From contig NW_027195367.1 of NCBI RefSeq assembly GCF_038502225.1, forward strand, positions 124,001 to 188,000: a stretch of 64,000 nt of DNA, in the 5' to 3' direction. How positions within the stretch are numbered: position 1 is the first letter of the stretch; every line of letters starts with the position of its first letter. The position numbers and the translations under genes were made by a program. Positions 8,561-57,924 of this stretch are shown here, in pieces. This DNA is from Cherax quadricarinatus. Its lineage: Eukaryota; Arthropoda; Malacostraca; Decapoda; Parastacidae. Below the pieces are notes generated by a model, which did not search any database, was not told where the DNA came from, and worked only from the letters and a program-made list of their open reading frames with translations.

Positions 8561-11500
8561 TCAGAATTTATGAAGTAAGTCAGTTGTTGTCAAAAAGCCA
8601 ATGAGAGTGTCCGGATGAAAGGTGCGTCCATCAGCGAGAAGGGAAGGTAAAGAGAGAGCAGCGGAGCAAAGACGACGACGGAGGTAAATTCCGTGTGCTC
8701 GTTGATAAAGTGGGCAGTCCAACAGAATGTGGCTGACTGATAATGGAGCCTGGCAATTCTCACAGAGGAGCAGGGCGCTTCTCCATGAGATATCCATGAG
8801 CAAGACAAGTATGGCCAATGCGAAGACGGGAGAGAGTAGTCTCCCAACCTCGACACTGGTGATAAGAAGACAGCCAGTAACCTATACTCATTTTAATAGA
8901 TAGAAGTTTGTTACTTAGCATAGTAGACCAACGTTGTTGCCAACGGATGTGAAGGTGGGAAGATATTGCAGCAAAATAGTCCATAAATGGAATACCTCTA
9001 TAAGAAACTGGTAGGTCATGTACTGCTGACCGCGCAGCAGTGTCTGCTGTCCATTGCCCTGTACGTCAACATGACCAGAAACCCAACAAAAAACAATATC
9101 TTTATGCTTGGTAAAGATGCGGCGTAGCCAAAGTTGGATACGGAGGACTAAGGGGTGAGGTGTATCAAATTTCTGTATAGCCTGTAAAGCACTAAGGGAG
9201 TCAGAGACAACCACAAATGATGACACAGGCATAGATGAAATACGGATAAGTGCTGTAAGGATGGCATAAAATTCAGCAGTAAAAATACTAGCCGAAGATA
9301 GTAAATGCCCTTGTACGACACTGTCCGGAAACACTGCTGCGAATCCTACGCCGTCAGAAGACTTAGAACCATCTGTGTACACAGCAATGGCATGAGAATG
9401 AGAGTGAAAGTGGTCAAGAAAGAGAGAGCGGGAAGCGACCGTAGACAGTTGGGCTTTCGAGCAAGGGAGAGAGAAAGAACAGACTCGAACAGCTGGAACT
9501 TCCCAGGGGGGTAGGGAAAAGTGAGATGCTACATGAACTTAGAAAGGTGGTAATTGAAGAGAAAACAAGAGCGAATGTAGGCGAAGAGAGAAGGGATGGA
9601 GTAAACGGGGGCGGCGAACAAATAGAGAATGTCTACTAATATCAGTGACCATTCTATAAATGGAAGGATTGCAGAGATCATGAGAGCGTACATATTAGCG
9701 AAGGCAATGGACATCACAGTGATCGGATAAGGATGGAACGTTCGCTTCTACAGAGAGGCTCTTAACAGGGGAAGAGCGAAAAGCACCAAGGCATAAACAT
9801 AATCCTTGGTGATGAATGGGGTTAAGGCTAGAGAGAGTAGCAGGAGATGCCGCTGAATAGATCTGGTCACCATAATCAAGTTTCGATAAAATGAGGGTGG
9901 AATGTAGGCGAAGGAGGGTTCGACGATCAGCTCCCCATGAAAGATGAGCAAGGGTTTTAAGAAGGTTCAGCCGGCTGTGGCAAGTTGCCTTCAGAGAGGT
10001 AATGTGAGGTTTCCAGGATAACCTACGGTCAAAGAGAAGGCCCAGAAACTTGACTGTATTACGTTCAGGGATACGGGAGCCATAGAGGTACAAAGGATGA
10101 TCAAAGATGACAGAGCGTCTAGTGAAAGTAATTTGGTGGGTTTTAGTGCTGGAAAATTTAAACCCATGTGTGGTGGCCCAATTGGAAACACGGTCGACCG
10201 CATGCTGGAGAGAAACTGTAATGAGGTGACAGTCAGCGCCTGCACAGGCAATAGCGAAGTCATCAACATAGAGTGATGACCAAATATTTGATGGAAGACT
10301 AGAGGCCAAATCATTAATAGCAAGGAGAAAAAGTGTTGTGCTCAGAACACATCCCTGGGGGACACCTTCAGCTTGGATAAAGTCTGGGGAGAGCACATTA
10401 TTAACCCGAACACGGAAATGTCTATCGGTTAAAAAGTTCTTAAGGAAGGATGGTAGATTGCCTCGGAGGCCTAAGGAGTGGGCTTGGGCCAAAATATTAT
10501 ACCTCCAAGTTGTGTCATATGCCTTCTCAAGGTCAAAAAATATGGCAATAACTGAGTGGTTATTTGCAAAGGCATTACGAACATACGTATCCAAGCATAG
10601 TAAGGGGTCTATGGTAGAACGTCCCTTACGAAAGCCATATTGATGAGTGGAGAGACTGTTGTGTGTCTCTAAATACCACACTAAACGTCTATTTACCAGG
10701 CGTTCCATCACTTTGCAAACTGCACTGGTAAGAGCAATGGGACGATAGTGGGAGGCTTCATGTCCCGTAGTGCCTGGTTTGCGGAAAGGGAGAACAATGG
10801 CAGATTTCCACAGCTGTGGAAGAACTCCTTGTGACCAAATAAGATTGAAAAGGCATAATAGGACTGCAAGGGCTGACTGATGTAAATGTTGTAGCATACG
10901 AATATGAATGATGTCGGGCCCAGCTGCCGATGATCGGCAAGCTGAGAGTGTTGCCTCCAGTTCATGAAGTGTAAAAGGCACATTATACTGTTCTTCTCTG
11001 AGAGAAGAAAAGTCCAAGGGTGCTAACTCTCTGGCAGACTTCGAGGAAAGAAACGAGGGGCATAGATGGAGCCCCTGAGAAATATGGACCAGATGATTGC
11101 CAATTTCATTGGCAACATCTAGTGGGTTTGCTATATCAACACAGGCAACCCGCAGAACAGGAGCCGGGTCAGGAGAATATTTACCACTCAGTTTTTGTAC
11201 TTCTTTTCCAGACTGCACTCAGAGGAAGCAGAGGTGATGGTGGAGACAATCTCGCCAGCAAGTGCGTTTAGCGTCATGGATGACACGGCGAGCGATCACA
11301 CGCTTCTGCTTAAAATCAAGAAGTCTCTCCGTGGTTCTATTGTACCGGTACCTGTCCCATGCAGCGCGTTTCAAACGTACTGCACGAGCACAAGCAGGAG
11401 ACCACCAAGGCACGCATTTCTGAGAATGCCTGCCCGAAGTTTGGGGTATAGAATGAGAAGCTGCAGTTAAAACGGAGGATGAGAAGAGGTGTAAAAGCCC

Positions 11501-24324: not shown

Positions 24325-24474
24325 TAACAACCTGTCGGTATTGTATACCATTTTGATGTTCATCTTGTCAGACACTGCAACACATGGCATCTTGGTACAG
24401 AAAACTCCTTGGACAAGCTTTTCAAGTGAGAAGTGTTGGATCTGAGAGGAACATGACCTTTCAGTGGTTACATT

Positions 24475-24510
<36 letters not shown>

Positions 24511-24918
24511 TGCACCTCTCCTTCCGACAGTATTTAAGTCTCCGCACTGTCGCTTGATCTTCAGATAGTTCCTGACTATGGAACTGAACTTCTCCAGGCC
24601 GAGGGACTGACAACCTCAAATTCTACGACTACAAGGGTGATGGACTGATTACATCGTCTTCACATCTCTACTGTTCCTGCCTATTTTCTGTATTCGACTG
24701 AAGAAGCCTACTGTGTAGGCGAAACGTTTCGGAATAAAGTTGTCTAACTGTTGCATATGTGTCTTACCTAACAACCTGTCGGTATTGTATACCATTTTGA
24801 TGTTCATCTTGTCAGACACTGCAACACATGGCATCTTGGTACAGAAAACTCCTTGGACAAGCTTTTCAAGTGAGAAGTGTTGGATCTGAGAGGAACATGA
24901 CCTTTCAGTGGTTACATT

Positions 24919-24954
<36 letters not shown>

Positions 24955-25364
24955 TGCACCTCTCCTTCCGACAGTATTTAAGTCTCCGCACTGTCGCTTG
25001 ATCTTCAGATAGTTCCTGACTATGGAACTGAACTTCTCCAGGCCGAGGGACTGACAACCTCAAATTCTACGACTACAAGGGTGATGGACTGATTACATCG
25101 TCTTCACATCTCTACTGTTCCTGCCTATTTTCTGTATTCGACTGAAGAAGCCTACTGTGTAGGCGAAACGTTTCGGAATAAAGTTGTCTAACTGTTGCAT
25201 ATGTGTCTTACCTAACAACCTGTCGGTATTGTATACCATTTTGATGTTCATCTTGTCAGACACTGCAACACATGGCATCTTGGTACAGAAAACTCCTTGG
25301 ACAAGCTTTTCAAGTGAGAAGTGTTGGATCTGAGAGGAACATGACCTTTCAGTGGTTACATTCT

Positions 25365-25399
<35 letters not shown>

Positions 25400-25809
25400 T
25401 GCACCTCTCCTTCCGACAGTATTTAAGTCTCCGCACTGTCGCTTGATCTTCAGATAGTTCCTGACTATGGAACTGAACTTCTCCAGGCCGAGGGACTGAC
25501 AACCTCAAATTCTACGACTACAAGGGTGATGGACTGATTACATCGTCTTCACATCTCTACTGTTCCTGCCTATTTTCTGTATTCGACTGAAGAAGCCTAC
25601 TGTGTAGGCGAAACGTTTCGGAATAAAGTTGTCTAACTGTTGCATATGTGTCTTACCTAACAACCTGTCGGTATTGTATACCATTTTGATGTTCATCTTG
25701 TCAGACACTGCAACACATGGCATCTTGGTACAGAAAACTCCTTGGACAAGCTTTTCAAGTGAGAAGTGTTGGATCTGAGAGGAACATGACCTTTCAGTGG
25801 TTACATACT

Positions 25810-25845
<36 letters not shown>

Positions 25846-26255
25846 TGCACCTCTCCTTCCGACAGTATTTAAGTCTCCGCACTGTCGCTTGATCTTCAGA
25901 TAGTTCCTGACTATGGAACTGAACTTCTCCAGGCCGAGGGACTGACAACCTCAAATTCTACGACTACAAGGGTGATGGACTGATTACATCGTCTTCACAT
26001 CTCTACTGTTCCTGCCTATTTTCTGTATTCGACTGAAGAAGCCTACTGTGTAGGCGAAACGTTTCGGAATAAAGTTGTCTAACTGTTGCATATGTGTCTT
26101 ACCTAACAACCTGTCGGTATTGTATACCATTTTGATGTTCATCTTGTCAGACACTGCAACACATGGCATCTTGGTACAGAAAACTCCTTGGACAAGCTTT
26201 TCAAGTGAGAAGTGTTGGATCTGAGAGGAACATGACCTTTCAGTGGTTACATTCT

Positions 26256-26290
<35 letters not shown>

Positions 26291-26698
26291 TGCACCTCTC
26301 CTTCCGACAGTATTTAAGTCTCCGCACTGTCGCTTGATCTTCAGATAGTTCCTGACTATGGAACTGAACTTCTCCAGGCCGAGGGACTGACAACCTCAAA
26401 TTCTACGACTACAAGGGTGATGGACTGATTACATCGTCTTCACATCTCTACTGTTCCTGCCTATTTTCTGTATTCGACTGAAGAAGCCTACTGTGTAGGC
26501 GAAACGTTTCGGAATAAAGTTGTCTAACTGTTGCATATGTGTCTTACCTAACAACCTGTCGGTATTGTATACCATTTTGATGTTCATCTTGTCAGACACT
26601 GCAACACATGGCATCTTGGTACAGAAAACTCCTTGGACAAGCTTTTCAAGTGAGAAGTGTTGGATCTGAGAGGAACATGACCTTTCAGTGGTTACATT

Positions 26699-26734
<36 letters not shown>

Positions 26735-27144
26735 TGCACCTCTCCTTCCGACAGTATTTAAGTCTCCGCACTGTCGCTTGATCTTCAGATAGTTCCTGAC
26801 TATGGAACTGAACTTCTCCAGGCCGAGGGACTGACAACCTCAAATTCTACGACTACAAGGGTGATGGACTGATTACATCGTCTTCACATCTCTACTGTTC
26901 CTGCCTATTTTCTGTATTCGACTGAAGAAGCCTACTGTGTAGGCGAAACGTTTCGGAATAAAGTTGTCTAACTGTTGCATATGTGTCTTACCTAACAACC
27001 TGTCGGTATTGTATACCATTTTGATGTTCATCTTGTCAGACACTGCAACACATGGCATCTTGGTACAGAAAACTCCTTGGACAAGCTTTTCAAGTGAGAA
27101 GTGTTGGATCTGAGAGGAACATGACCTTTCAGTGGTTACATTCT

Positions 27145-27182
<38 letters not shown>

Positions 27183-27594
27183 TGCACCTCTCCTTCCGAC
27201 AGTATTTAAGTCTCCGCACTGTCGCTTGATCTTCAGATAGTTCCTGACTATGGAACTGAACTTCTCCAGGCCGAGGGACTGACAACCTCAAATTCTACGA
27301 CTACAAGGGTGATGGACTGATTACATCGTCTTCACATCTCTACTGTTCCTGCCTATTTTCTGTATTCGACTGAAGAAGCCTACTGTGTAGGCGAAACGTT
27401 TCGGAATAAAGTTGTCTAACTGTTGCATATGTGTCTTACCTAACAACCTGTCGGTATTGTATACCATTTTGATGTTCATCTTGTCAGACACTGCAACACA
27501 TGGCATCTTGGTACAGAAAACTCCTTGGACAAGCTTTTCAAGTGAGAAGTGTTGGATCTGAGAGGAACATGACCTTTCAGTGGTTACATTCACT

Positions 27595-27626
<32 letters not shown>

Positions 27627-28036
27627 TGCACCTCTCCTTCCGACAGTATTTAAGTCTCCGCACTGTCGCTTGATCTTCAGATAGTTCCTGACTATGGAAC
27701 TGAACTTCTCCAGGCCGAGGGACTGACAACCTCAAATTCTACGACTACAAGGGTGATGGACTGATTACATCGTCTTCACATCTCTACTGTTCCTGCCTAT
27801 TTTCTGTATTCGACTGAAGAAGCCTACTGTGTAGGCGAAACGTTTCGGAATAAAGTTGTCTAACTGTTGCATATGTGTCTTACCTAACAACCTGTCGGTA
27901 TTGTATACCATTTTGATGTTCATCTTGTCAGACACTGCAACACATGGCATCTTGGTACAGAAAACTCCTTGGACAAGCTTTTCAAGTGAGAAGTGTTGGA
28001 TCTGAGAGGAACATGACCTTTCAGTGGTTACATTCT

Positions 28037-28072
<36 letters not shown>

Positions 28073-28482
28073 TGCACCTCTCCTTCCGACAGTATTTAAG
28101 TCTCCGCACTGTCGCTTGATCTTCAGATAGTTCCTGACTATGGAACTGAACTTCTCCAGGCCGAGGGACTGACAACCTCAAATTCTACGACTACAAGGGT
28201 GATGGACTGATTACATCGTCTTCACATCTCTACTGTTCCTGCCTATTTTCTGTATTCGACTGAAGAAGCCTACTGTGTAGGCGAAACGTTTCGGAATAAA
28301 GTTGTCTAACTGTTGCATATGTGTCTTACCTAACAACCTGTCGGTATTGTATACCATTTTGATGTTCATCTTGTCAGACACTGCAACACATGGCATCTTG
28401 GTACAGAAAACTCCTTGGACAAGCTTTTCAAGTGAGAAGTGTTGGATCTGAGAGGAACATGACCTTTCAGTGGTTACATTCT

Positions 28483-28523
<41 letters not shown>

Positions 28524-28935
28524 TGCACCTCTCCTTCCGACAGTATTTAAGTCTCCGCACTGTCGCTTGATCTTCAGATAGTTCCTGACTATGGAACTGA
28601 ACTTCTCCAGGCCGAGGGACTGACAACCTCAAATTCTACGACTACAAGGGTGATGGACTGATTACATCGTCTTCACATCTCTACTGTTCCTGCCTATTTT
28701 CTGTATTCGACTGAAGAAGCCTACTGTGTAGGCGAAACGTTTCGGAATAAAGTTGTCTAACTGTTGCATATGTGTCTTACCTAACAACCTGTCGGTATTG
28801 TATACCATTTTGATGTTCATCTTGTCAGACACTGCAACACATGGCATCTTGGTACAGAAAACTCCTTGGACAAGCTTTTCAAGTGAGAAGTGTTGGATCT
28901 GAGAGGAACATGACCTTTCAGTGGTTACATTCTCT

Positions 28936-28974
<39 letters not shown>

Positions 28975-29842
28975 TGCACCTCTCCTTCCGACAGTATTTA
29001 AGTCTCCGCACTGTCGCTTGATCTTCAGATAGTTCCTGACTATGGAACTGAACTTCTCCAGGCCGAGGGACTGACAACCTCAAATTCTACGACTACAAGG
29101 GTGATGGACTGATTACATCGTCTTCACATCTCTACTGTTCCTGCCTATTTTCTGTATTCGACTGAAGAAGCCTACTGTGTAGGCGAAACGTTTCGGAATA
29201 AAGTTGTCTAACTGTTGCATATGTGTCTTACCTAACAACCTGTCGGTATTGTATACCATTTTGATGTTCATCTTGTCAGACACTGCAACACATGGCATCT
29301 TGGTACAGAAAACTCCTTGGACAAGCTTTTCAAGTGAGAAGTGTTGGATCTGAGAGGAACATGACCTTTCAGTGGTTACATTCTCCTACTACTACTACTA
29401 AACTACTACTACTACTACTATTACTACTACTCTGCACCTCTCCTTCCGACAGTATTTAAGTCTCCGCACTGTCGCTTGATCTTCAGATAGTTCCTGACTA
29501 TGGAACTGAACTTCTCCAGGCCGAGGGACTGACAACCTCAAATTCTACGACTACAAGGGTGATGGACTGATTACATCGTCTTCACATCTCTACTGTTCCT
29601 GCCTATTTTCTGTATTCGACTGAAGAAGCCTACTGTGTAGGCGAAACGTTTCGGAATAAAGTTGTCTAACTGTTGCATATGTGTCTTACCTAACAACCTG
29701 TCGGTATTGTATACCATTTTGATGTTCATCTTGTCAGACACTGCAACACATGGCATCTTGGTACAGAAAACTCCTTGGACAAGCTTTTCAAGTGAGAAGT
29801 GTTGGATCTGAGAGGAACATGACCTTTCAGTGGTTACATTCT

Positions 29843-29874
<32 letters not shown>

Positions 29875-30284
29875 TGCACCTCTCCTTCCGACAGTATTTA
29901 AGTCTCCGCACTGTCGCTTGATCTTCAGATAGTTCCTGACTATGGAACTGAACTTCTCCAGGCCGAGGGACTGACAACCTCAAATTCTACGACTACAAGG
30001 GTGATGGACTGATTACATCGTCTTCACATCTCTACTGTTCCTGCCTATTTTCTGTATTCGACTGAAGAAGCCTACTGTGTAGGCGAAACGTTTCGGAATA
30101 AAGTTGTCTAACTGTTGCATATGTGTCTTACCTAACAACCTGTCGGTATTGTATACCATTTTGATGTTCATCTTGTCAGACACTGCAACACATGGCATCT
30201 TGGTACAGAAAACTCCTTGGACAAGCTTTTCAAGTGAGAAGTGTTGGATCTGAGAGGAACATGACCTTTCAGTGGTTACATTCT

Positions 30285-30319
<35 letters not shown>

Positions 30320-30727
30320 TGCACCTCTCCTTCCGACAGTATTTAAGTCTCCGCACTGTCGCTTGATCTTCAGATAGTTCCTGACTATGGAACTGAACTT
30401 CTCCAGGCCGAGGGACTGACAACCTCAAATTCTACGACTACAAGGGTGATGGACTGATTACATCGTCTTCACATCTCTACTGTTCCTGCCTATTTTCTGT
30501 ATTCGACTGAAGAAGCCTACTGTGTAGGCGAAACGTTTCGGAATAAAGTTGTCTAACTGTTGCATATGTGTCTTACCTAACAACCTGTCGGTATTGTATA
30601 CCATTTTGATGTTCATCTTGTCAGACACTGCAACACATGGCATCTTGGTACAGAAAACTCCTTGGACAAGCTTTTCAAGTGAGAAGTGTTGGATCTGAGA
30701 GGAACATGACCTTTCAGTGGTTACATT

Positions 30728-30763
<36 letters not shown>

Positions 30764-31180
30764 TGCACCTCTCCTTCCGACAGTATTTAAGTCTCCGCAC
30801 TGTCGCTTGATCTTCAGATAGTTCCTGACTATGGAACTGAACTTCTCCAGGCCGAGGGACTGACAACCTCAAATTCTACGACTACAAGGGTGATGGACTG
30901 ATTACATCGTCTTCACATCTCTACTGTTCCTGCCTATTTTCTGTATTCGACTGAAGAAGCCTACTGTGTAGGCGAAACGTTTCGGAATAAAGTTGTCTAA
31001 CTGTTGCATATGTGTCTTACCTAACAACCTGTCGGTATTGTATACCATTTTGATGTTCATCTTGTCAGACACTGCAACACATGGCATCTTGGTACAGAAA
31101 ACTCCTTGGACAAGCTTTTCAAGTGAGAAGTGTTGGATCTGAGAGGAACATGACCTTTCAGTGGTTACATTCTCACTACT

Positions 31181-31212
<32 letters not shown>

Positions 31213-31622
31213 TGCACCTCTCCTTCCGACAGTATTTAAGTCTCCGCACTGTCGCTTGATCTTCAGATAGTTCCTGACTATGGAACTGAACTTCTCCAGG
31301 CCGAGGGACTGACAACCTCAAATTCTACGACTACAAGGGTGATGGACTGATTACATCGTCTTCACATCTCTACTGTTCCTGCCTATTTTCTGTATTCGAC
31401 TGAAGAAGCCTACTGTGTAGGCGAAACGTTTCGGAATAAAGTTGTCTAACTGTTGCATATGTGTCTTACCTAACAACCTGTCGGTATTGTATACCATTTT
31501 GATGTTCATCTTGTCAGACACTGCAACACATGGCATCTTGGTACAGAAAACTCCTTGGACAAGCTTTTCAAGTGAGAAGTGTTGGATCTGAGAGGAACAT
31601 GACCTTTCAGTGGTTACATTCT

Positions 31623-31669
<47 letters not shown>

Positions 31670-32079
31670 TGCACCTCTCCTTCCGACAGTATTTAAGTCT
31701 CCGCACTGTCGCTTGATCTTCAGATAGTTCCTGACTATGGAACTGAACTTCTCCAGGCCGAGGGACTGACAACCTCAAATTCTACGACTACAAGGGTGAT
31801 GGACTGATTACATCGTCTTCACATCTCTACTGTTCCTGCCTATTTTCTGTATTCGACTGAAGAAGCCTACTGTGTAGGCGAAACGTTTCGGAATAAAGTT
31901 GTCTAACTGTTGCATATGTGTCTTACCTAACAACCTGTCGGTATTGTATACCATTTTGATGTTCATCTTGTCAGACACTGCAACACATGGCATCTTGGTA
32001 CAGAAAACTCCTTGGACAAGCTTTTCAAGTGAGAAGTGTTGGATCTGAGAGGAACATGACCTTTCAGTGGTTACATTCT

Positions 32080-32117
<38 letters not shown>

Positions 32118-32527
32118 TGCACCTCTCCTTCCGACAGTATTTAAGTCTCCGCACTGTCGCTTGATCTTCAGATAGTTCCTGACTATGGAACTGAACTTCT
32201 CCAGGCCGAGGGACTGACAACCTCAAATTCTACGACTACAAGGGTGATGGACTGATTACATCGTCTTCACATCTCTACTGTTCCTGCCTATTTTCTGTAT
32301 TCGACTGAAGAAGCCTACTGTGTAGGCGAAACGTTTCGGAATAAAGTTGTCTAACTGTTGCATATGTGTCTTACCTAACAACCTGTCGGTATTGTATACC
32401 ATTTTGATGTTCATCTTGTCAGACACTGCAACACATGGCATCTTGGTACAGAAAACTCCTTGGACAAGCTTTTCAAGTGAGAAGTGTTGGATCTGAGAGG
32501 AACATGACCTTTCAGTGGTTACATTCT

Positions 32528-32562
<35 letters not shown>

Positions 32563-32972
32563 TGCACCTCTCCTTCCGACAGTATTTAAGTCTCCGCACT
32601 GTCGCTTGATCTTCAGATAGTTCCTGACTATGGAACTGAACTTCTCCAGGCCGAGGGACTGACAACCTCAAATTCTACGACTACAAGGGTGATGGACTGA
32701 TTACATCGTCTTCACATCTCTACTGTTCCTGCCTATTTTCTGTATTCGACTGAAGAAGCCTACTGTGTAGGCGAAACGTTTCGGAATAAAGTTGTCTAAC
32801 TGTTGCATATGTGTCTTACCTAACAACCTGTCGGTATTGTATACCATTTTGATGTTCATCTTGTCAGACACTGCAACACATGGCATCTTGGTACAGAAAA
32901 CTCCTTGGACAAGCTTTTCAAGTGAGAAGTGTTGGATCTGAGAGGAACATGACCTTTCAGTGGTTACATTCT

Positions 32973-33007
<35 letters not shown>

Positions 33008-33417
33008 TGCACCTCTCCTTCCGACAGTATTTAAGTCTCCGCACTGTCGCTTGATCTTCAGATAGTTCCTGACTATGGAACTGAACTTCTCCAGGCCGAG
33101 GGACTGACAACCTCAAATTCTACGACTACAAGGGTGATGGACTGATTACATCGTCTTCACATCTCTACTGTTCCTGCCTATTTTCTGTATTCGACTGAAG
33201 AAGCCTACTGTGTAGGCGAAACGTTTCGGAATAAAGTTGTCTAACTGTTGCATATGTGTCTTACCTAACAACCTGTCGGTATTGTATACCATTTTGATGT
33301 TCATCTTGTCAGACACTGCAACACATGGCATCTTGGTACAGAAAACTCCTTGGACAAGCTTTTCAAGTGAGAAGTGTTGGATCTGAGAGGAACATGACCT
33401 TTCAGTGGTTACATTCT

Positions 33418-33452
<35 letters not shown>

Positions 33453-33487
33453 TGCACCTCTCCTTCCGACAGTATTTAAGTCTCCGC
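24325..33487. repeat. Tandem array, about 445-bp unit, ~20.6 copies
   Basis: Measured from a fixed anchor (CTGAAGA) the 20 copies begin at 24698, 25142, 25587, 26033, 26478, 26922, 27370, 27814, 28260, 28711, 29162, 29620, 30062, 30507, 30951, 31400, 31857, 32305, 32750 and 33195. Spacings are 442-458 bp, and the variation I could see comes from an internal (CTA)n microsatellite of roughly 9-15 repeats. Outside that microsatellite the copies I compared look essentially identical. The unit also holds a TATTTAAG box, a hammerhead-like motif, and an AATAAAG sequence just after it. The array stops in mid-unit at 33487, after TCTCCGC. It is not a protein gene array. Confidence 0.97.
25099..25170 (+). 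ncRNA. Hammerhead-ribozyme-like motif (one of 20 in the array)
   Basis: Representative of 20 copies whose CTGAAGA cores begin at the anchor positions given for the array. Read 5' to 3': CGTC (25099-25102), a ~39-nt segment, CTGAAGA (25142-25148), one extra A, a perfect 6-bp stem II GCCTAC-TGT-GTAGGC (25150-25164), then GAAACG (25165-25170). This matches the hammerhead core CUGANGA...GAAA. ACG of GAAACG can pair with CGT of CGTC to make a 3-bp stem III, which would put the predicted cleavage after C25102. Stem I is weak here (UC and AU pairs with internal mismatches). An extra A at this position is known from one viroid hammerhead. Activity is not shown. Confidence 0.6.
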
Positions 33488-34027: not shown

Positions 34028-34763
34028 AGACTGGAGTGGTAGAGGCAGTGGTTGAGGCAGCGATTGAGGCAGTGGTTGAGGCAGCTGTTGAGGCAGTGGG
34101 TGAGGCAGCTGTTGAGGCTGCTGTTGAGGCTGCTGTTGAGGCAGTGGTTGAGGCAGTGGTTGAGGCAGCTGCTGAGGCAGTGGTTGAGGCAGCTGCTGAG
34201 GCAGTGGTTGAGGCAGCTGTTGAGGCAGCGATTGAGGCAGTGGGTGAGGCAGCTGTTGAGGCTGCTGTTGAGGCAGCAATTGAGGCAGTGGTTGAGGCAG
34301 CTGTTGAGGCAGTGATTGAGGCAGTGGTTGAGGCAGCGGTTGAGGCAGTGGTTGAGGCAGCTGCTGAGGCAGTGGTTGAGGCAGCTGTTGAGGCAGCAAT
34401 TGAGGCAGTGGGTGAGGCAGCTGTTGAGGCAGCGATTGATGCAGTGGGTGAGGCAGCTGTTGAGGCAGTGGGTGAGGCAGCTGTTGAGGCTGCTGTTGAG
34501 GCAGCAATTGAGGCAGTGGTTGAGGCAGCTGCTGAGGCAGTGATTGAGGCAGTGGTTGAGGCAGCTGTTGAGGCAGCGATTGAGGCAGTGGGTGAGGCAG
34601 CTGTTGAGGCAGCGATTGAGGCAGTGGTTGAGGCAGCTGTTGAGACAGCGACTGAGGCAGTGGGTGAGGCAGCAGTTGAGGCAGCTGTTGAGGCAGCGAT
34701 TGAGGCAGTGGTTGAGGCAGCGGTTGAGGCAGCGGTTGAGGCAGCGGTTGAGGCAGTGGTATT
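34028..34763. repeat. 12-bp minisatellite, ~60 copies
   Basis: Unit GAGGCAGTGGTT with variants such as GAGGCAGCTGTT, GAGGCAGCGATT and GAGGCTGCTGTT. Because the unit length is a multiple of three and contains few stops, several frames on both strands stay open for up to 267 codons ([20 protein letters not shown] types). No other evidence supports a protein. Confidence 0.93.
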
Positions 34764-36330: not shown

Positions 36331-38341
36331 ACATATTCTAGCTAAAAAAATTAGTTTTTTCAAGAAATACTACAAAAAGCGTCGATTCGTCGAAATATTC
36401 TAAAAATATCATTATCGATCATTTTTCAACATTCAAAACTACATTACATATTTTTAACAAATCTTACAAATATTCGATAAAAATCAATAATATTAAATTC
36501 TTCATATATTATTTTAAAGATATTTGAATCATTGAAAATCTCGGGAAAATGTGCTAAATTAATCTTTTTATTGCATATTTCAACAATTTAGAGCATTTAA
36601 AACACTTTTCATAGAAACCTCATTTTTTTTAGCTAAAATACATTGATTTTCACACTTTTTAATCACAATTCCTCCAGCAATTGAATTTTATGCTAAAAGT
36701 AAGCTAAATTTAGATTTTTGTTAAGTGCATTGTCAATACACTTTTTAATTAAAAAGGTGAAGTTTTTCAAGAAATGCTTGAAAAAATTTCGAATCGTGGA
36801 AATTTCCAAAAAATATCGCTGTCAATGGTTTTCAAACATTTAAAAATATATTATATATTTTTAAAAATAACAAAAATGTTCAGGTAAAAATCAAGAATAA
36901 TTTTTAATGCTTCATATACAGTGGACCCCCGGTTAACGATATTTTTTCACTCCAGAAGTATGTTCAGGTGCCAGTACTGACCGAATTTGTTCCCATAAGA
37001 AATATTGTGAAGTAGACTAGTCCACTTCAGACTCCCAAACATACACGTACAAACGCACTTACATAAATACACTTACATAATTGGTCGCATTTGGAGGTGA
37101 TCGTTATGCGGGGGTCCACTGTATTTTAAAAAAAAAATACTTGAATCATTGAAAAACTCTGAAAAATGTGCTAAATCAATGATTTAGTGCAAATTTCGAG
37201 GATTTAGAGCATTGAGAGCACTTTTCAGGTGAATGTCATTTTTTAGCTAAAATAATTGGATTTTCACAGTTTTTAATCGGAATTAACACTGCAACTGAAT
37301 TTTATGATCAAAAAAAGCTAAATTTTTATATATTTTGAAGTACTTTGTCAATAGATATTTTAGCCAAAAAATTGCAGTTTTTTCAAGAAATGCTTGAAAA
37401 AGCTTCGAATCGTCGAAAAATGCAAAAAAAATTAATTTTCGATCATTTCTCAATACTCTAAAGTATATTACATATTTTTAAAAAATCCTACAAATATTCG
37501 ATAAAAATCAATAATAATGTTAAAAACCTCATGTACTATTTTAAAAATACTTGAATCATTGGAAAAGTCGGGAAAATATGCTAAAACAATCTTTTAGTGC
37601 ATATTTCGAAGATTTAGAGCATTAATAGCACTTTTAAGACTAATTTTATTGTTTAGTTAAAATTCATGTATTTTCACACTTTTTGGTCAGAATTACTGCT
37701 GGAATTGAATTTTATGATAAAAATAAGCTAAATTTTTATATTTTTGTGAAGTATTTTGTCAATACATATTTTAGCTAAAAAATCGCAGTTTTTTCAAAAA
37801 ATGCTTGGAAAGCTTTGAATCGTCGAAAAATTAAAAAAAAAATGTAATTTTCGATCATTTCTCAATGTTCTAAAGTATATTATATATTTTTTAAAAATCC
37901 TACATATATTCGATAAAAGTCAATAATAATGTTAAAAACTTCATGTACTATTTTAAAAATACTTGAATCATTGAAAAAGTTGGGAAAATATGCTAAAACA
38001 ATCTTTTATTGCATATTTCGAAAATTGTGAGCATTTAGAGCACTTTTAGGACGAATTTTATTTTTTCGTTGAAGATCATGTATTTTCACACTTTTTGGTG
38101 AGAATTACAGCTGGAATTGAATTTTATGCTAAAAGTAAGCTAAATTTTTATATTTTTGTGAAGTATTTTGTCAATACATATTTTAACTTAAAAATTACAG
38201 TTTTTTCAAGAAATGCTTGGAAATGCATCGAATCGTCAAAAAATCCCAAAAAATGTAATTTTCGATCATTTCTCAATATTCAAAAGCACATTACATATTT
38301 TTAAAAAATCCTACAAATATTCGATAAAAATCTATAATATT
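36331..38341. repeat. 410-bp AT-rich tandem array, ~5 diverged copies
   Basis: Anchors (CAAGAAAT or CAAAAAAT preceded by TTTTT) fall at 36361, 36768, 37384, 37795 and 38207. The spacings are 407, 616, 411 and 412 bp. The 616-bp interval becomes 413 bp once the 203-bp MITE at 36919-37121 is removed. Copies differ by many substitutions, so the array is old. No coding potential. Confidence 0.9.
36919..37121. mobile_element. MITE with TA target site (mariner/pogo type)
   Basis: Ends CAGTGGACCCCCGGTTAACG and GCGGGGGTCCACTG are inverted complements over the last ~13 bp, and TA flanks both sides (36917-36918 and 37122-37123). The length is 203 bp and no transposase is encoded. The terminal sequence is shared with the right end of the Tigger pseudogene element (GGGTCCACTGTA at 40717-40728), which could have supplied the transposase. 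Confidence 0.9.
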
Positions 38342-38574
38342 GTTAAAGGAGGGGTTTGGGATATTGGCAGTTTGGAGGGATATGTTGTGTATCTTTATAT
38401 GTGTATGCTTCTAAAATGTTGTATTCTGAGCACCTCTGCAAAAACAGTGATAATGTGTGAGTGTGGTCAAAGTGTTGAATGATGATGAAAGTATTTTCTC
38501 TTTGGGGATTTTCTTTCTTTTTTGGGTCACCCTGCCTCGGTGGGAGACGGCCGACTTGTTGAAAAAAAAAAAAA
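38342..38574 (+). mobile_element. 3' fragment of an RTE-like LINE subfamily
   Basis: Similar to 44355-44617 throughout (GGGATATTGGCAGTTTGGAG, CACCTCTGCAAAAACAGTG, GGGTCACCCTGCCTCGGTGG) and ends in GACTTGTTG and a poly(A) of about 13. It differs from the AATAA-tailed subfamily at 49.7 kb in its final bases and in having a homopolymer tail. Confidence 0.85.
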
Positions 38575-40726
38575 ACAAACTGAAGAAGACATGCGCAGTT
38601 ACATGACACTTACATTTATTGAAGATCTGGTGATGATTGATGGTATGGGAGGAGGGGAGAGTGTTGATGGTCTTAGTGTTTAGAAGGGGAATCCCCTTCC
38701 ATTAAGACTTGAGGTGTCAAGTCCTTTTCTGGGGTTACTTCCCTTCTTTTAATGCCACTAGGACCAGCTTCAGAGTCACTGGACTTCTGTCGCACAACAT
38801 ATCTGTCCATAGAGGTCTGTACCTCTCATTCCTTTATAACTTTCCTAAAGTGGTTCACAACATTGTCAGTGTAATAGTCACCAGCATGGCTTGCAACAGC
38901 TGTCTGAGGGTGATTTTCATCAATAAAGGTTTGCACTTTAAGCCACATTGCACAGATTTCCTTAATCTTTGAAGTAGGCAACTTCTTCAATTTCTCTCTC
39001 CACTCCTCCTAAGCAGTTTCCTCAGGTCTGGCCTCTTGCTGTTGAAGTTGATCTAGCAGCTCATCAGTGGTTAGTTCTTCATTGTCCTCCTCCACCAACT
39101 CTTCCACATCATCCCCACTAACCTCCAACCCCAAGGACTTTCCCAATGCCATAATGGATTCCTCAACTGGCATAGGATTCCCAGGGTTAGCCTCAAACCC
39201 TTCAAAATCCCTTTGGCCTACACATTCTGGCCACAGTTTCTTCCAAGCAGAGTTCAAGGTCCTGTTAGTCACTCCCTCCCAAGCCTTACCTATAAGGTTT
39301 ACACAACTGAGTATATTAAAGTGATCTCTCCAAAACTCTCTTAGAGTCAATTGAGTTTCTGAGGTCACTAAAAAGCACCTTTCAAACAGAGCTTTTGTGT
39401 ACAGTTTTTTGAAGTTTGCAATAACCTGCTGGTCCATGGGCTGCAGGAGAGGAGTGGTATTAGGAGGCAAAAACTTGACCTTAATGAAGCTCATGTCCCC
39501 ACAAAGTTGCTCTGCCAAGTCTGTAGGATGACCAGGGGCATTGTCTAACATCAGGAGGCACTTAAGGTCTAATTTCTTTTCAGTTAGGTAATTTTTCACA
39601 TTGGGGGCAAATGCATGGTGTAACCAGTCATAGATAAAGTCCCTAGTGACCCATGCCTTACTGTTTGCCCTCCACAGCACACGCAAATTAGCCTTGAGGA
39701 TATTCTTTTGCCTGAACGCTCTGGGAGTTTCCGAGTGATACACTAATAAAGGCTTCACTTTGCAATCACCACTAGCATTGGCACACATGAGAAGAGTAAG
39801 CCTGTCTTTCATAGGCTGATGTCCTGGGAGTGCCTTTTCCTCCTGAGTAATGTATGTCCTGCTTGGCATTTTCTTCCAAAACAGGCCTGTTTCGTCACAA
39901 TTAAACACTTGTTCAGGTTTCAGTCCTTCACTGTCTATGTACCCCTCGAATTCCTGCACATATTTTTCAGCTGCTTTTTGGTCCAAACTGGCAGCCTCAC
40001 CATGCCTTATCACACTATGTATGCCACTATGCTTCTTAAATCTCTCAAACCAACCTTTGCTGGCCTTAAATTCACTCACATCATCACTAGTTGCAGGCAT
40101 TTTTCTAATTAAATCCTGATGCAACTTCCTAGCCTTTTCACTTATGATCGCTTGAGAGATGCTATCTCCTGCTATCTGTTTTTCATTTATCCACACCAAT
40201 AAGAGTCTCAACATCTTCTATCACTTGCGATCTCTGTTTCGAAGACACAGATGAACCTTTGGCAAGAACAGCTTCCTTGATTGCCGTTTTCTTGGACACA
40301 ATAGTAGCGATGGTTGATTGGGGTTTACTATACAACCTGGCCAGCTCAGAGACACGTACTCCACTTTCATACTTAGCAATGATCTCTTTCTTCATCTCTA
40401 TAGTAATTCTCACCCTTATTCCTGTAGGGTTTGCACTAGAAGCTTTCTTGGGGCCCATGGTCACTTATTTTGCAGATGAAATCACCAAAAATGCTGTAAT
40501 ATGAAATGTTCCGATTGTATGCTTGGATGTTACCGCGGAGGCTGGCTGGTAAACAATGCCACCGGCGGAACATGTGAGGCTGGCTCAGGCAGCACATTAG
40601 ACGTGTCTTGGACGAATAGCGTTGAGCGAGTTTTTCAGCGGTATGCAAGGCTGAATTTTAGCGATAAAATGTATCGGTATGCGGATTTAACGTTATGTGA
40701 TGCCAACGGTATGTGAGGGTCCACTG
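38575..40726 (-). mobile_element. Tigger (pogo) DNA transposon, left end missing
   Basis: The right end 40713-40726 is GAGGGTCCACTG followed by TA, a pogo-type terminus, and the transposase pseudogene lies inside. The left terminus was not found: at 38574 the sequence joins the poly(A) of an RTE-like insert, so the left end was lost or displaced by it. Confidence 0.75.
38673..40464 (-). pseudogene. Tigger/pogo transposase pseudogene
   Basis: Start MTMGPKKASS at 40464. The first 93 residues hold a CENP-B-type helix-turn-helix (EIIAKYESGVRVSELARLYS). A frameshift between 40214 and 40183 moves to the next frame (401 residues), which has a second DNA-binding segment (ASKGWFERFKKHSGI) and the DDE catalytic core: D107 in NCDETG, D224 in MLDNAPGH and D261 in LQPMDQ. 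This is a DDD-type triad typical of Tigger. An in-frame TAG at 39009-39011 ends it early, yet the frame continues (ICAMWLKVQTFIDENHPQ) past another TGA (38826-38828) to a natural TAA at 38673. So one frameshift and two premature stops separate it from a normal full-length protein. It would bind its own terminal repeats and cut and paste the element. Confidence 0.92.
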
Positions 40727-43649: not shown

Positions 43650-44617
43650 ATGGAAGAAGTGAATGTTTTCAGATACTTGGGAGTTGACGTGTCGGCGGAT
43701 GGATTTATGAAGGATGAGGTTAATCATAGAATTGATGAGGGAAAAAGGTGAGTGGTGCATTGAGGTATATGTGGAGTCAAAAAACGTTATCTATGGAGGC
43801 AAAGAAGGGAATGTATGAAAGTATAGTAGTACCAACACTCTTATATGGGTGTGAAGCTTGGGTTGTAAATGCTGCAGCGAGATGGTTGGAGGCAGTGGAG
43901 ATGTCCTGTCTAAGGGCAATGTGTGGTGTAAATATTATGCAGAAAATTCAGAAAGCGGAAATTAAAAGAAGGTGTGGAGTTAATAAAAGTATTAGTCAAG
44001 AGGGCTGAAGAGGGGTTGTTGAGGTGGTTTGGTCATTTAGAGAGAATGGATCAAAGTAGAATGACATGGACAGCGTATAAATCTGTAGGGGAAGGAAGGC
44101 GGGGTAGGGGTCATCCTCGAAAAGGTTGGAGGGAGGGGGTAAAGGAGGTTTTGTGGGCAAGGGGCTTGGACTTCCAGCATGCGTGCGTGAGCGTGTTAGA
44201 TAGGAGTGAATGGAGACGAATGGTATTTGGGACCTGACGATTTGTTGGAGTGTGAGCAGGGTAATATTTAGTGAAGGGATTCAGGGAAACCGGTTATTTT
44301 ATATAACCAGACTTGAGTCCTGGAAATGGGAAGTACAATGCCTGCACTCTAAAGGACGGGTTTGGGATATTGGCAGTTTGGAGGGATATGTTGTGTATCT
44401 TTATACGTATATGCTTCTAAACTGTTGTATTCTGAGCACCTCTGCAAAAACAGTGGTTATGTGTGAGTGTGGTGAAAGTGTTGAATGATGATGAAAGTAT
44501 TTTCTTTTTGGGGATTTTTTCTTTTTGGGTCACCCTGCCTCGGTGGGTCACCCTGCCATAGTGGGTCACCCTGCCTCGGTGGGAGATGGCCAACTTGTTG
44601 GAGAAAAAAAAAAAATT
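43650..44617 (+). mobile_element. RTE-like LINE copy, homopolymer-tailed subfamily
   Basis: ORF2 residues EVNVFRYLGVDVSADGFMKD (43656-43715), MSGALRYMWSQKTL (43748), TLLYGCEAWVVNAAARW, then FGHLERMDQSRM, GRRGRGHPRKGWREG and RSEWRRMVFGT up to 44237. One frameshift lies near 43980-43990. The 3' UTR matches 38342-38574. Its end contains the GGGTCACCCTGCC phrase three times in tandem (44525-44585), then a poly(A) of about 12 at 44605-44617. Confidence 0.9.
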
Positions 44618-46045
44618 GAACTGTATTAATTTCAACTGTTTTTCTTTCAATAACAAGCTCTACAAACAAACCTACGGCATGGGAATCGGGGTCCCCCATC
44701 ATTGCCATCTTAGCCAACTCGTACGTGGAACACCTAGAGTCCGAACACTTCGCCAACATCGTCCCTTCAAGCGTCACTTGGTTACGTTACGTGGACGACG
44801 TTCTCGTAAGAACTCCCAGATGTTTTGATGTACGGAATCTTCAGGCAAGGCTCAACGCAGTTGAACCGGCGATCCAGTTTACACTAGAAGAAGAGTCCAA
44901 TGACAAGTTACCTTTCCTAGACGTCCTCATTCACAAAGAAGACAACAACCTAAGATTTCAAGTTTATCGAAAATCTACAAATAAAAATGATCTCGCACAC
45001 ATCTATTCCAGTCAAGATACTGAGACCAAAAGAGGCATCGTCACTGGATTTTTCCCGAGAGCATGCTGAATTTGTAGTCCCGAGTTTCTTGACGAGGAAT
45101 GTACATACATTCACCAAACCTTCACTGATTTACATTTTCCTTCCTTTTTCACCAAAGACTGCGAGAAAAGAGCACTTCAGATCATTAATTCTCCACGCAC
45201 CAACACCACTCCCAACAAAGTTATAATTCTTCCCAACAGCCAGGTTGCACTGAATGTTTCTAAAGCACTTTCACAAGCTAACACCAGAGTCGCCATCGCT
45301 TCCAGCACTTCAATAAAGAATCTAACCAGAACAAAATCCAAGCACCACAAACCAGTCAACGAAGGGGTTTACAGTATACCCTGTGGAGGCTGCAGCAAGA
45401 TTTATGTTGGTGAAACAGCAAGAAACCACGACACCCGCTTCAATGAACACATTTACGCATGTAGGAACGATAACTTGAACAACGCCTGTGTACAACACCG
45501 AAATTCCACCAATCGATCATCTCCTGAAACTCACGGACGCCCAACTAGTAATCAAAGAAACTAATTTCCACAGACGCAAGTGCCTTGAATCTTCACTAAT
45601 AGCCGTTTCTAATACAGTTAAACAAAACAACGGCAGCTTCACCATCTCTGAAGTCTTAGCAAGAATCCTCCTGAAAACAGTAAACCCTGCCATCACATAG
45701 TCTCTCCTGTTAATACTACACAAGCACATTACAGAGAATGAACACTGAAACAGGCCTTCTCTATCCAGCCTCCAATAGAAATATTTATTTAACCTATTTT
45801 AATGTTACCCAAGTAATAGCTTTTATATCCTTTTACTCGTGTGCGAGTTAATTGTTCTAACATATTGTATTACTACTATAACTTGCATTACTGCTACTAC
45901 TACTACCACTAGTATTGCACCTCACTCTGAGCCTATATATACCCTCGGTGTCCACGTACTGTTTGTGACGGCTTGATAAAGCTCCTGGAGAGCGAAACGT
46001 TGCCACAATAAAAATGTCACATTAGTTGCACTTGTGTCCTTTTAC
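44618..46045 (+). mobile_element. Penelope-like element, 5'-truncated
   Basis: RT end: NNKLYKQTYGMGIG (44654-44695), a frameshift, then HLESEHFANIVPSSVTWLRY and YVDDVLV (44785-44805), and FTLEEESNDKLPFLDVLIH (44878-44934), all characteristic of Penelope-type RTs, followed by FQVYRKSTN. Endonuclease: GVYSIPC..C.KIYVGETAR at about 45368-45424, the GIY-YIG motif in its GVY/YVG form, with TRFNEHIYACRNDN after it. Frameshifts near 44697, 45065 and 45480 kill the gene. The end has a hammerhead-like block (45953-46004) and AATAAAAATG. GIY-YIG plus this RT type identifies a Penelope-like element; its product would nick DNA and reverse transcribe the element RNA. Confidence 0.88.
45953..46004 (+). ncRNA. 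Hammerhead-like motif at Penelope-like element end (divergent)
   Basis: CACGTACTG (about 45954-45962), then CTTGATAAAGC (from 45972), a small stem GCTC-CTGGA-GAGC, then GAAACG (45992-45997). The stem-II-plus-GAAACG part fits a hammerhead. The core deviates from CUGANGA (TTGATAA), so this is either inactive or a divergent form. Confidence 0.4.
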
Positions 46046-47751: not shown

Positions 47752-48010
47752 GGCCTACTGTGTAGGCGAAACGTTTCATAATAAAGATACCTAACTGTTG
47801 CATATGTGTCTTACCTAACAACCTGTCGGTATTTTATACCATTTTAATGCTCAATCTGTCAGACACTGCAACACAAGGGTATCTTGGTACAGACCTGCAA
47901 TCAACTTCGACAACTTCCACTAGTGAGAGCGGCTGGATTTGAGAGGGACCTGACCTTTCAACATCTGAGTTCTTACCTCTCCTAGTGGCCTACGTCTCAC
48001 CTCTTGGCGC

Positions 48011-48018
48011 TATAAAAG
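48011..48018 (+). promoter_or_regulatory. TATA box in the 428-bp unit
   Basis: TATAAAAG in the context GGCGCTATAAAAGCTCC, repeated in the next unit at 48439-48446. The 445-bp family has TATTTAAG in the equivalent place. Position and match to a polymerase II TATA box suggest a promoter within each unit; transcription is not shown. Confidence 0.55.
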
Positions 48019-48128
48019 CTCCATCCTGTCACTTCATCTCCATATTGTTTCATACTATGGAACAATGCTCTTCTCCAGACTGAGGGACTGACCACCTCAA
48101 AACTTTAAGGGTGATGGACTGATTACAT

Positions 48129-48201
48129 CGTCTTCAAGTATCTTCTGCTTCTATCAACTTTTCTGTACTTGACTGAAGAAGCCTACTGTGTAGGCGAAAC
48201 G
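48129..48201 (+). ncRNA. Hammerhead-ribozyme-like motif, 428-bp unit 1
   Basis: CGTC (48129-48132), stem I strand TCAAGTA (48134-48140) complementary over 7 bp to TACTTGA (48166-48172), CTGAAGA (48173-48179), an extra A, stem II GCCTAC-TGT-GTAGGC (48181-48195) and GAAACG (48196-48201). ACG pairs with CGT to give a short stem III. A single extra T lies between CGTC and the stem I strand, so the geometry is close to but not exactly canonical. It is the best-formed example in the window. Confidence 0.65.
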
Positions 48202-48556
48202 TTTCATAATAAAGATACCTAACTGTTGCATATGTGTCTTACCTAACAACCTGTCGGTATTTTATACCATTTTAATGCTCAATCTGTCAGACACTGCAAC
48301 ACAAGGGTATCTTGGTACAGACCTGCAATCAACTTCGACAACTTCCACTAGTGAGAGCGGCTGGATTTGAGAGGGACCTGACCTTTCAACATCTGAGTTC
48401 TTACCTCTCCTAGTGGCCTACGTCTCACCTCTTGGCGCTATAAAAGCTCCATCCTGTCACTTCATCTCCATATTGTTTCATACTATGGAACAATGCTCTT
48501 CTCCAGACTGAGGGACTGACCACCTCAAAACTTTAAGGGTGATGGACTGATTACAT

Positions 48557-48629
48557 CGTCTTCAAGTATCTTCTGCTTCTATCAACTTTTCTGTACTTGA
48601 CTGAAGAAGCCTACTGTGTAGGCGAAACG
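48557..48629 (+). ncRNA. Hammerhead-ribozyme-like motif, 428-bp unit 2
   Basis: The same elements as the first unit: CGTC at 48557-48560, CTGAAGA at 48601, stem II following and GAAACG ending at 48629. No differences from the first unit were noticed. Confidence 0.65.
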
Positions 48630-48713
48630 TTTCATAATAAAGATACCTAACTGTTGCATATGTGTCTTACCTAACAACCTGTCGGTATTTTATACCATTT
48701 TAATGCTCAAACA

Positions 48714-57809: not shown

Positions 57810-57924
57810 GACGAGAGATGTATATATAGGCGTAGGGTTGATCAATGTGGCCACTGTGGTGGCCACAGATACGTCACTTCGTTTCCGCTTTCTCGATGTT
57901 GTAGGTTTGCGGCTTGAAGTGGCC

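Follow-up and report, generated by a model that had tools for sequence, protein, structure and literature searches.

Introduction

Hammerhead ribozyme motifs are widespread in Penelope-like elements (PLEs), where their activity in vivo and their role have been called still a mystery (PMC7761336). The present work concerns a tandem array, referred to as array A, at positions 24325 to 33487 of a stretch of 64,000 nucleotides from the crayfish Cherax quadricarinatus (assembly GCF_038502225.1, contig NW_027195367.1, positions 124,001 to 188,000 of the forward strand). This whole stretch is called the window. Every complete unit of the array carries a hammerhead-like motif. Penelope elements reach a mean of 2.3% in Astacidea, the infraorder to which crayfish belong (PMC10454600).

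Penelope elements are described as having a terminal repeat (pLTR) of ~200 bp, an inverted pLTR that is mostly head-to-head, target site duplications (TSDs) of 8-10 bp (9 bp in Adineta vaga), and an optional tail of 31 bp on one inverted pLTR; in Adineta vaga, the pLTRs are sufficient for mobilisation in trans (PMC3846280). In the Poseidon PLE of the lizard Anolis carolinensis (PAc), the tail is explained by two start sites of reverse transcription (PMC11167929). Regarding the hammerhead itself, positions 3 and 8 form a core base pair, which occurs as U3-A8 in reported natural examples, a form that is active in vitro (PMC3088659), and action as a dimer has been reported for amphibian hammerheads (PMC7229834) and suggested for the minimal ones of PLEs (PMC7761336).

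Array A is read here, with a probability of about 0.8, as a tandem multimer of a solo, non-autonomous PLE terminal repeat, in whose units a TATA-like box is joined by a minimal type I hammerhead fold (with one A added), an AATAAA hexamer and a tail hairpin. This reading is carried by the anatomy of the unit, by covariation specific to the fold, by insertion marks of the PLE type on dispersed relatives, and by PLEs of the same genome that bear the same kind of motif.

Structure of the array and of its motif

Tandem Repeats Finder describes array A as 20.5 copies with a period of 445 and 98% matches. The string CTGAAGA-A-GCCTAC-TGT-GTAGGC-GAAAC has exactly 20 matches in it, at spacings of 442-458, and two further ones in a smaller array, array B, at 47753-48710; the pattern CTGANGAN{4,30}GAAAC returns those 22 matches in the window, against a mean of 0.96 and a maximum of 5 in shuffled sequence. 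A preliminary description, made from the letters alone, had proposed a homogeneous array of 20 copies with the motif once per unit, which these results confirm, and the CGTC, the extra A and the AATAAAG that it listed are present in the units as claimed. When the 20 complete units are aligned, 21 columns are variable, 20 of them within or at the edge of a CTA tract and one elsewhere. Given this near-identity outside the CTA tract, the array must be young or homogenised, and conservation within it is no evidence of function. The array is one-sided, with no adjoining minus-strand copy in a covariance-model scan, and in this it differs from the dispersed copies; it starts at unit position 1 (24325), while its right end (33487) falls at about unit position 222, matching neither of the usual 3' ends.

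Read as type I, the motif has a stem I that pairs UUCGA (24693-24697) with UCGGA (24729-24733), a contiguous helix of 5 bp including one G-U that directly flanks the core. The preliminary description had called stem I weak, a verdict that came from using the wrong permutation. The minimum free energy (MFE) structure of the monomer consists of exactly stem I and stem II, at -12.1 kcal/mol. No intramolecular stem III is present, as GAAACGUH has no loop and the stem is reduced to the self-complementary ACGU; stem III, including A15.1-U16.1, could consequently form only between two copies. Judged from its sequence, the motif of array A is thus predicted to fold as a minimal hammerhead of type I, with an additional A inserted between A9 and stem II.

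Upstream of the motif, the block GGGTGATGGACTGATTACATCGTCTTCA (for instance from 24636), which contains CGTC, is identical over 28 nt in arrays A and B amid otherwise diverged sequence.

Covariation between motif families

Relatives of the motif were collected from 318,948 nt (loci L001-L080 plus the window) as rows in which a core is combined with at least 4 bp of stem II and with GAAAC at one-base spacing, so that stem II was demanded by the search and stem I was not. From 218 GAAAC rows, 189 (63 distinct strings) were retained as family rows, after dropping 28 matches that lie in the sequence coding for GIY-YIG and a single chance match, at window position 12865; the counts include overlapping loci more than once. 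These rows comprise the families of Table 1 and two singletons, and position 7 of the core varies among them. Positions 3 and 8 change together, as C-G in 95 rows, U-A in 51 and G-C in 31, so that the pair is Watson-Crick in 177 of 189 rows (57 of the 63 distinct strings). GAAACGU is found in 182 rows and GAAACAU in seven, and H17 is U in 180, C in six, A in three and never G. Stem I pairs at 2.1-1.1 in 176 rows, at 2.2-1.2 in 180 and at 2.3-1.3 in 174.

A representative set of eight hand-picked motifs was drawn from six families (C, D, E, P, Q and R), excluding A and B and including the near-duplicates C1/C2 and P/P2. In this set 66 of 70 cells pair (94.3%), compared to a shuffle mean of 69.8% (0 of 500 as high) and to 31.9-61.9% with slid partners, and the 3-8 pair is U-A four times, C-G three times and G-C once. 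A covariance model built from these eight, blind to A and B, recognises all 20 A copies (E 2.7e-9) and both complete B copies (2.6e-10), as well as the P copy (1.4e-15), relatives of which are part of the model; the next best match has an E of 0.39 and the truncated first B copy one of 0.88, and all these E-values are rough owing to a short calibration. The covariance-model search proposed in the preliminary description hence came out positive with the model from the other families and negative for the array with Rfam. Together, the covariation across families and the family rows support its claim of a hammerhead-type motif with an extra A beside the core.

In the whole genome, a pattern of 35 places with the spacer A fixed and positions 3, 7, 8 and most of stem I free gave 460 matches, versus 8 for its reverse. 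Among 100 rows listed from these matches, many of which are decayed copies, Watson-Crick pairs were counted 67 times at 3-8 (permuted mean 42.8, maximum 58), 76 times at 2.1-1.1 (56.2, maximum 69) and 69 times at 2.2-1.2 (35.2, maximum 51); these three pairs, together with II3 and II4, exceeded all 5,000 permutations. None of six shifted control pairs was enriched for Watson-Crick pairing, and one was weakly so when G-U was also allowed (p 0.012). When each distinct stem-loop is represented by a single row (78 rows), the results for stem I, 3-8 and II4 persist, and that for II3 weakens to p 0.011. A pattern with a purine-pyrimidine third pair gave 14 matches and none in its control, too few for use. 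Viral and genome contig collections were also scanned for PLE hammerheads of other taxa, and no relative turned up in them.

Two other copies deserve mention. A single motif at about position 1500 of L070 has a stem I of 8 bp (AUCACAAC/GUUGUGAU), a U3-G8 wobble and an extra U after the predicted cut site. Family Q also occurs in tandem, with three motifs 421 bp apart (L040, 2452-3294).

A probable Penelope-like origin

The window itself holds a broken, 5'-truncated PLE body of family P with a motif downstream of it (Table 1). A domain search found no domains in the two window pieces of this body; an open frame of a P relative in L036 contains RVT_1 (5.2e-10) and GIY-YIG (2.7e-5), and four of its nearest proteins (P0001, P0002, P0006 and P0008) are from Cherax quadricarinatus, with 87-97% identity. 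The motif lies 3' of a PLE body in families P, R, D and E. Array A shares with P, and with B and R, the tail TGTCGGTA...TACC; AATAAA is also found downstream of the motif in representatives of B, C, D, E, P, Q and R, and TATA-like sequences, which are putative promoters, occur in A, B and P.

The dispersed A and B copies are mostly arms joined at their 5' ends, that is, head-to-head. Of the seven A pairs, six combine an arm that stops at unit position 5-12 with one that stops at 35-39, and the last has one end at 38 and a truncated arm; in all seven R pairs one arm ends at 220-225, with the other at 182-191 in six and at 162 in one. The two 3' ends, ~33 nt apart in both A and R, amount to an optional tail on one arm. 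Flanking direct repeats of at least 11 nt are found in 10 of 13 head-to-head pairs (six A/B, seven R), against a maximum of 10 over 156 mismatched-flank controls. Concerning 5' ends, 7 of 17 non-redundant dispersed A arms start at unit positions 239-260, 32-53 nt past the first base of the TATA-like box; these arms were tallied by hand with overlapping loci counted once, in loci that had been fetched by the core itself. A and B show the features of Penelope pLTRs except the coding region, and are therefore filed as non-autonomous PLE repeats. The link to Penelope elements put forward in the preliminary description is borne out by the TSDs, the tail, the position of the motif 3' of PLE bodies, and the RVT_1 and GIY-YIG domains of the P relative.

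The inserted base beside the core

In the hammerhead consensus, stem II follows directly after A9. In the crayfish, a spacer base between A9 and stem II is present in 189 of 189 family rows. Within the 3.95-Gb assembly, the exact 28-nt core of A and B with the spacer A has 46,610 matches and its reversed control none, and a spacer-A pattern in which the second pair of stem II is not C-G has 11,559, versus 146 for the reversed control. A canonical-length pattern without the spacer A gave 2,447 matches, compared to 475 for the reversed control; in the first 100 of the matches listed, stem II is intact one base earlier in 17, the spacer is a base other than A in 40, and neither applies to 43; the 17 would scale to roughly 400 copies with canonical spacing if the matches listed are typical. 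Canonical spacing is therefore rare and looks like scattered decay. The PLE bodies beside the other motifs share 52% (R), 60-68% (D) and 42-52% (E) identity with that of P (tblastn), from which it follows that the extra A persisted while these elements diverged considerably.

Published work already covers minimal type I hammerheads of PLEs as well as hammerheads of type I within tandem repeats of animals; the extra A and the natural G3-C8 pair may be new. Neither a fixed inserted base after A9 nor a natural G3-C8 is mentioned in the available parts of PMC3088659, PMC10085705, PMC11167929, PMC7761336, PMC6155905 and PMC7229834, a coverage that does not extend to the papers defining the minimal PLE motifs (Cervera & de la Pena 2014; Lunse et al. 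2017). A literature search gave no match for the exact motif strings and, for a crayfish satellite hammerhead, only unrelated work.

Multimers of the repeat in the genome

The layout of clustered copies was read from 100 places listed of 8,124. Among the 42 clusters in the matches listed, 20 are two-strand, all of them of the form (-)n(+)m, with 13 single pairs and seven clusters of three or more copies; the largest have up to seven minus and five plus copies, and same-strand spacings are 429-465 with one of 715. In a second, overlapping list, 19 of 23 two-strand clusters are (-)n(+)m, one is ++- and three are mixed. These head-to-head multimers suggest that multimeric RNA was reverse transcribed from both cut strands.

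A multimer of seven minus and then five plus copies lies at 29176968-29181601 of contig 1, and the same layout recurs in the genome.

Interpretation of the array

The life cycle proposed for the repeat would begin with transcription from the TATA-like box, starting ~30-50 nt downstream of it. A PLE protein supplied in trans would then use both cut strands to prime reverse transcription within the tail, and this two-strand priming would yield head-to-head inserts of monomers or multimers. In a multimeric transcript, neighbouring copies may pair through ACGU into a double hammerhead that would be cut after GUU, probably slowly or only with the PLE protein. Whether the motif may cut RNA at all is given about even odds, and retention of the fold for protein binding is almost as likely as retention for cleavage in a double hammerhead.

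Several results weigh against a PLE repeat with a hammerhead fold, or against parts of this scheme. The extra A departs from the hammerhead consensus. Rfam 15 reports no hammerhead in the array units, the copy-1 region or the P region, either at the gathering threshold or at E<=10, and its only matches in the P region are two to snoRNAs, far under threshold. The stability of the A motif is not significant (z -1.43; 18 of 200 shuffles fold equally well) and by itself proves nothing. In other MFE folds, stem I is missing for B in two of three windows and for Q in both, and R and E favour a shifted or extended stem I. Folding a dimer, a check suggested in the preliminary description, turned out unfavourable, as the MFE structure of the A/B dimer pairs the entire GAAACGUUUC palindrome, which would mask the core. 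Regarding the covariation, 12 of the 189 rows have no Watson-Crick 3-8 pair (seven UUGAUCA, three GUGAAGA, one GUGAUUA with G-U and one UUGAUGA with U-G), of which the UUGAUCA and GUGAAGA rows look like copies truncated at the inverted junction; pair II2 is not enriched in the 100 listed rows (p 0.09, and 0.23 for Watson-Crick pairs), and because the motif families are related, the permutation p-values overstate. As for the PLE origin, no PLE body with a motif of the A or B type at its end could be recognised among the loci read, and L081 and L082, which lie between inverted A/B copies 2-4 kb apart, have no PLE match at E<=1. The TSD test covers the dispersed relatives and not the window array, and the repeat at L053, one of the ten that it found, is simple sequence rich in CA. 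The right end of array A at ~222 is left unexplained by the PLE insertion pattern.

The genomic copies also bear on cleavage. All 17 tallied dispersed A arms span the predicted cut. Two match lists were compared along the initial 8.27 Mb of contig 1, giving a sample of 20 copies that contain the exact post-cleavage sequence; in 19 of them the complete core lies immediately upstream, and starts at the cut are not enriched. Those inserts thus came from RNA that was uncut there, and cleavage is not needed for insertion, as in the lizard element. Efficient self-trimming is not supported, and the proposal of the preliminary description that a multimer cleaves itself into 445-nt monomers does not stand as it was put; RNA that never re-inserts may still be cleaved.

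It is against this background that the alternatives have to be judged. The motif could be a conserved, non-catalytic RNA fold of hammerhead ancestry, serving PLE protein binding, template choice or 3'-end formation, in which the extra A marks lost catalysis. This has a considerable chance of being right, somewhat short of even: the extra base is in every family row, the dispersed copies continue through the predicted cut, catalytic mutants of the lizard PLE hammerhead leave insertion unaffected and no RNA ends were observed at its cut site (PMC11167929), and a hammerhead is the characteristic 3'-terminal fold of Terminons (PMC6431247). It is opposed by the three states in which the core pair 3-8 (PMC3088659) covaries, by an H17 that is never G, and by the activity of the lizard motif with its protein (PMC11167929). 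A separate, tentative and on balance unlikely proposal is that the crayfish hosts a PLE lineage with a distinct hammerhead subtype, in which the extra A is obligatory, 3-8 swaps between C-G, U-A and G-C, and stem III forms only between copies, cleavage being held back until the fold is completed by the PLE protein or by an adjacent copy in a multimer, which would leave multimers intact for reverse transcription.

Turning to the array as such, it may be an ordinary satellite, grown by unequal exchange from one inserted PLE repeat, with the motif as a passenger of no present role. The near-identity of the units outside the microsatellite, the one-sidedness of the array and its right end agree with this possibility, which is doubtful yet far from negligible; the seven of 42 listed clusters that are two-strand arrays of three or more copies, all (-)n(+)m, point instead to multimer insertion at those places, and the covariation between families would stay unexplained. 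The type III hammerhead of the preliminary description, with stem III of ACG/CGU, a cut after C25102 and trimming of the multimer to 445-nt monomers, is very improbable. The CGTC on which it draws is indeed present in A units and the related B unit, but the layout entails a long loop without an evident stem I, the region 25093-25175 folds into another structure (z -0.34), and the helix that covaries is stem I of type I. Within the ~90 nt before the core, CGTC occurs in just 2 of the 39 P rows and 7 of the 32 R rows, and in none of the 6 Q rows. Mere chance resemblance to a hammerhead would fit the missing Rfam match and the modest folding z-score, and is hardly credible in view of the covariation including the 3-8 pair, the match of the cross-family model, and the 11,559 pattern matches against 146 reversed.

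Features of the window and of related loci

Table 1. Positions of the repeat arrays, motifs and Penelope-like bodies, and cores of the motif families. Positions are those of the window unless a locus is named.
Feature	Position	Strand	Basis or detail
Array A, read as 20.5 tandem copies of a 445-bp solo PLE terminal repeat (pLTR) unit	24325..33487	+	Tandem Repeats Finder; alignment of 20 complete units
Minimal type I hammerhead-like motif, copy 1 of 20	24693..24733	+	covariance-model match 24689-24739, E 2.7e-9
Copy 1, stem I	24693-24697/24729-24733	+
Copy 1, CUGAAGA	24698-24704	+
Copy 1, extra A	24705	+
Copy 1, stem II	24706-24711/24715-24720	+
Copy 1, GAA	24721-24723	+
Copy 1, ACGU	24724-24727	+
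Copy 1, U17	24728	+
Copy 1, predicted cut	between 24728 and 24729	+	after GUU; sequence directly 3' begins UCGGAAUAAAG
AATAAA, poly(A)-signal-like hexamer, copy 1	24733..24738	+	just past the predicted cleavage site
CGGTATTGTATACC hairpin in the PLE tail	24780..24793	+	unit positions 12-25, between two groups of observed 3' ends (5-12, 35-39)
TATTTAAG, TATA-box-like	24975..24982	+	unit position 207
Core starts, copies 2-10	25142, 25587, 26033, 26478, 26922, 27370, 27814, 28260, 28711	+
Core starts, copies 11-19	29162, 29620, 30062, 30507, 30951, 31400, 31857, 32305, 32750	+
Array A motif, copy 20 of 20	33190..33230	+
Broken 5'-truncated PLE body (RT + GIY-YIG region), family P	44571..45697	+	tblastn; whole-genome protein search
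TATATATA box, 3' repeat of the P element	45934..45941	+
Hammerhead-like motif of the P element	45962..46013	+	core UUGAUAA (U3-A8), stem I GGC/GCC, extra A kept
Array B, 2.2 copies of a related 428-bp unit (two identical units)	47753..48710	+	Tandem Repeats Finder
Array B complete motifs	48162-48215 and 48590-48643	+	stem I UGA/UCA
Family R, locus L064	body 537-1364, motif 1490-1539, inverted motif 366-415		
Family D, locus L011	body 2160-2705, motif 2840-2889		
Family E, locus L011	body 1420-1148, motif 957-905	-	
Family E, locus L013	body 319-902, motif 1093-1145		
Families A, B			core CUGAAGA
Family C			CUGAUGA, stem II GCCAC/GUGGC
Family D			CUGAAGA, stem II GCCA/UGGC, loop CUCG
Family E			UUGAAAA
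Family P			UUGAUAA or UUGACAA
Family Q			UUGAUAA, cleavage triplet GUC
Family R			GUGAUCA, stem I UUAGAA/UUCUAA (G3-C8)

Beside the right end of array A, a long inverted repeat (33550-34040/34890-35390) surrounds a minisatellite based on 12 bp (GGTTGAGGCAGC, 34038-34760), a layout that by eye resembles a fold-back element. Other mobile-element genes of the window, all on the minus strand (39009-40217, 53793-55028, 55063-57873 and 9695-11218), encode a DDE_1/HTH_Tnp_Tc5 transposase, a Mutator-like transposase and two reverse transcriptases (RVT_1). Further tandem arrays are found at 37133-38347 (period 412), 59620-60125 (period 22), 60565-60947 (period 40) and 61294-62057 (period 76).

Comparison with known systems

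A single genome here offers several diverged PLE families, ~58,000 pattern matches (46,610 plus 11,559, the second count against a background of about 146), core pairs that are swapped in nature, and a constant insertion beside the core. Two questions thereby become directly testable: whether catalysis tolerates a base inserted after A9, and whether it is cleavage or another function for which PLEs retain the fold. The array also shows a route from a retrotransposon repeat to a satellite-like array.

The closest described relatives are the minimal type I hammerheads of PLEs, which are likewise of type I, have no helix III beyond the conserved nucleotides, lie in PLE terminal repeats, occur in tandem, and have been suggested to act as dimers (PMC7761336, PMC6155905). 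The crayfish rows differ from them, as far as others' descriptions set these apart, in that all carry the extra A, show 3-8 as C-G, U-A or G-C, and are unmatched by Rfam 15. The satellite hammerheads of newt and axolotl also sit in a tandem, satellite-like repeat and have a very weak stem III with a palindromic loop and dimer-dependent cleavage, whereas their description, the sole basis of this comparison, mentions no extra A in its available parts (PMC7229834). The metazoan non-LTR retrozymes, for which PLEs have been proposed as helper (PMC7761336), share the type I hammerhead, the low GC content and tandem units of 150-450 bp (PMC7229834), a range at the upper edge of which the 445-bp unit falls. 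Their canonical hammerheads, however, have loop-loop contacts and a helix III, and circular RNA has been shown for them (PMC7229834).

In their mode of insertion, the crayfish repeats resemble the Penelope elements of Adineta vaga, with a pLTR containing a putative TATA box, a head-to-head inverted pLTR, TSDs and an optional tail on one arm (PMC3846280); in contrast to these, the solo repeats of the crayfish also occur in tandem, and the copies of their core alone number in the tens of thousands. The PAc element of Anolis carolinensis has a PLE repeat with a hammerhead, occurs in tandem, bears a tail between its two start sites of reverse transcription, and has both strands cut and extended (PMC11167929). 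Its hammerhead pairs C3-G8, and G3-C8 is there a laboratory double mutant that partly restores cleavage (PMC11167929), whereas in family R of the crayfish the same pair is natural.

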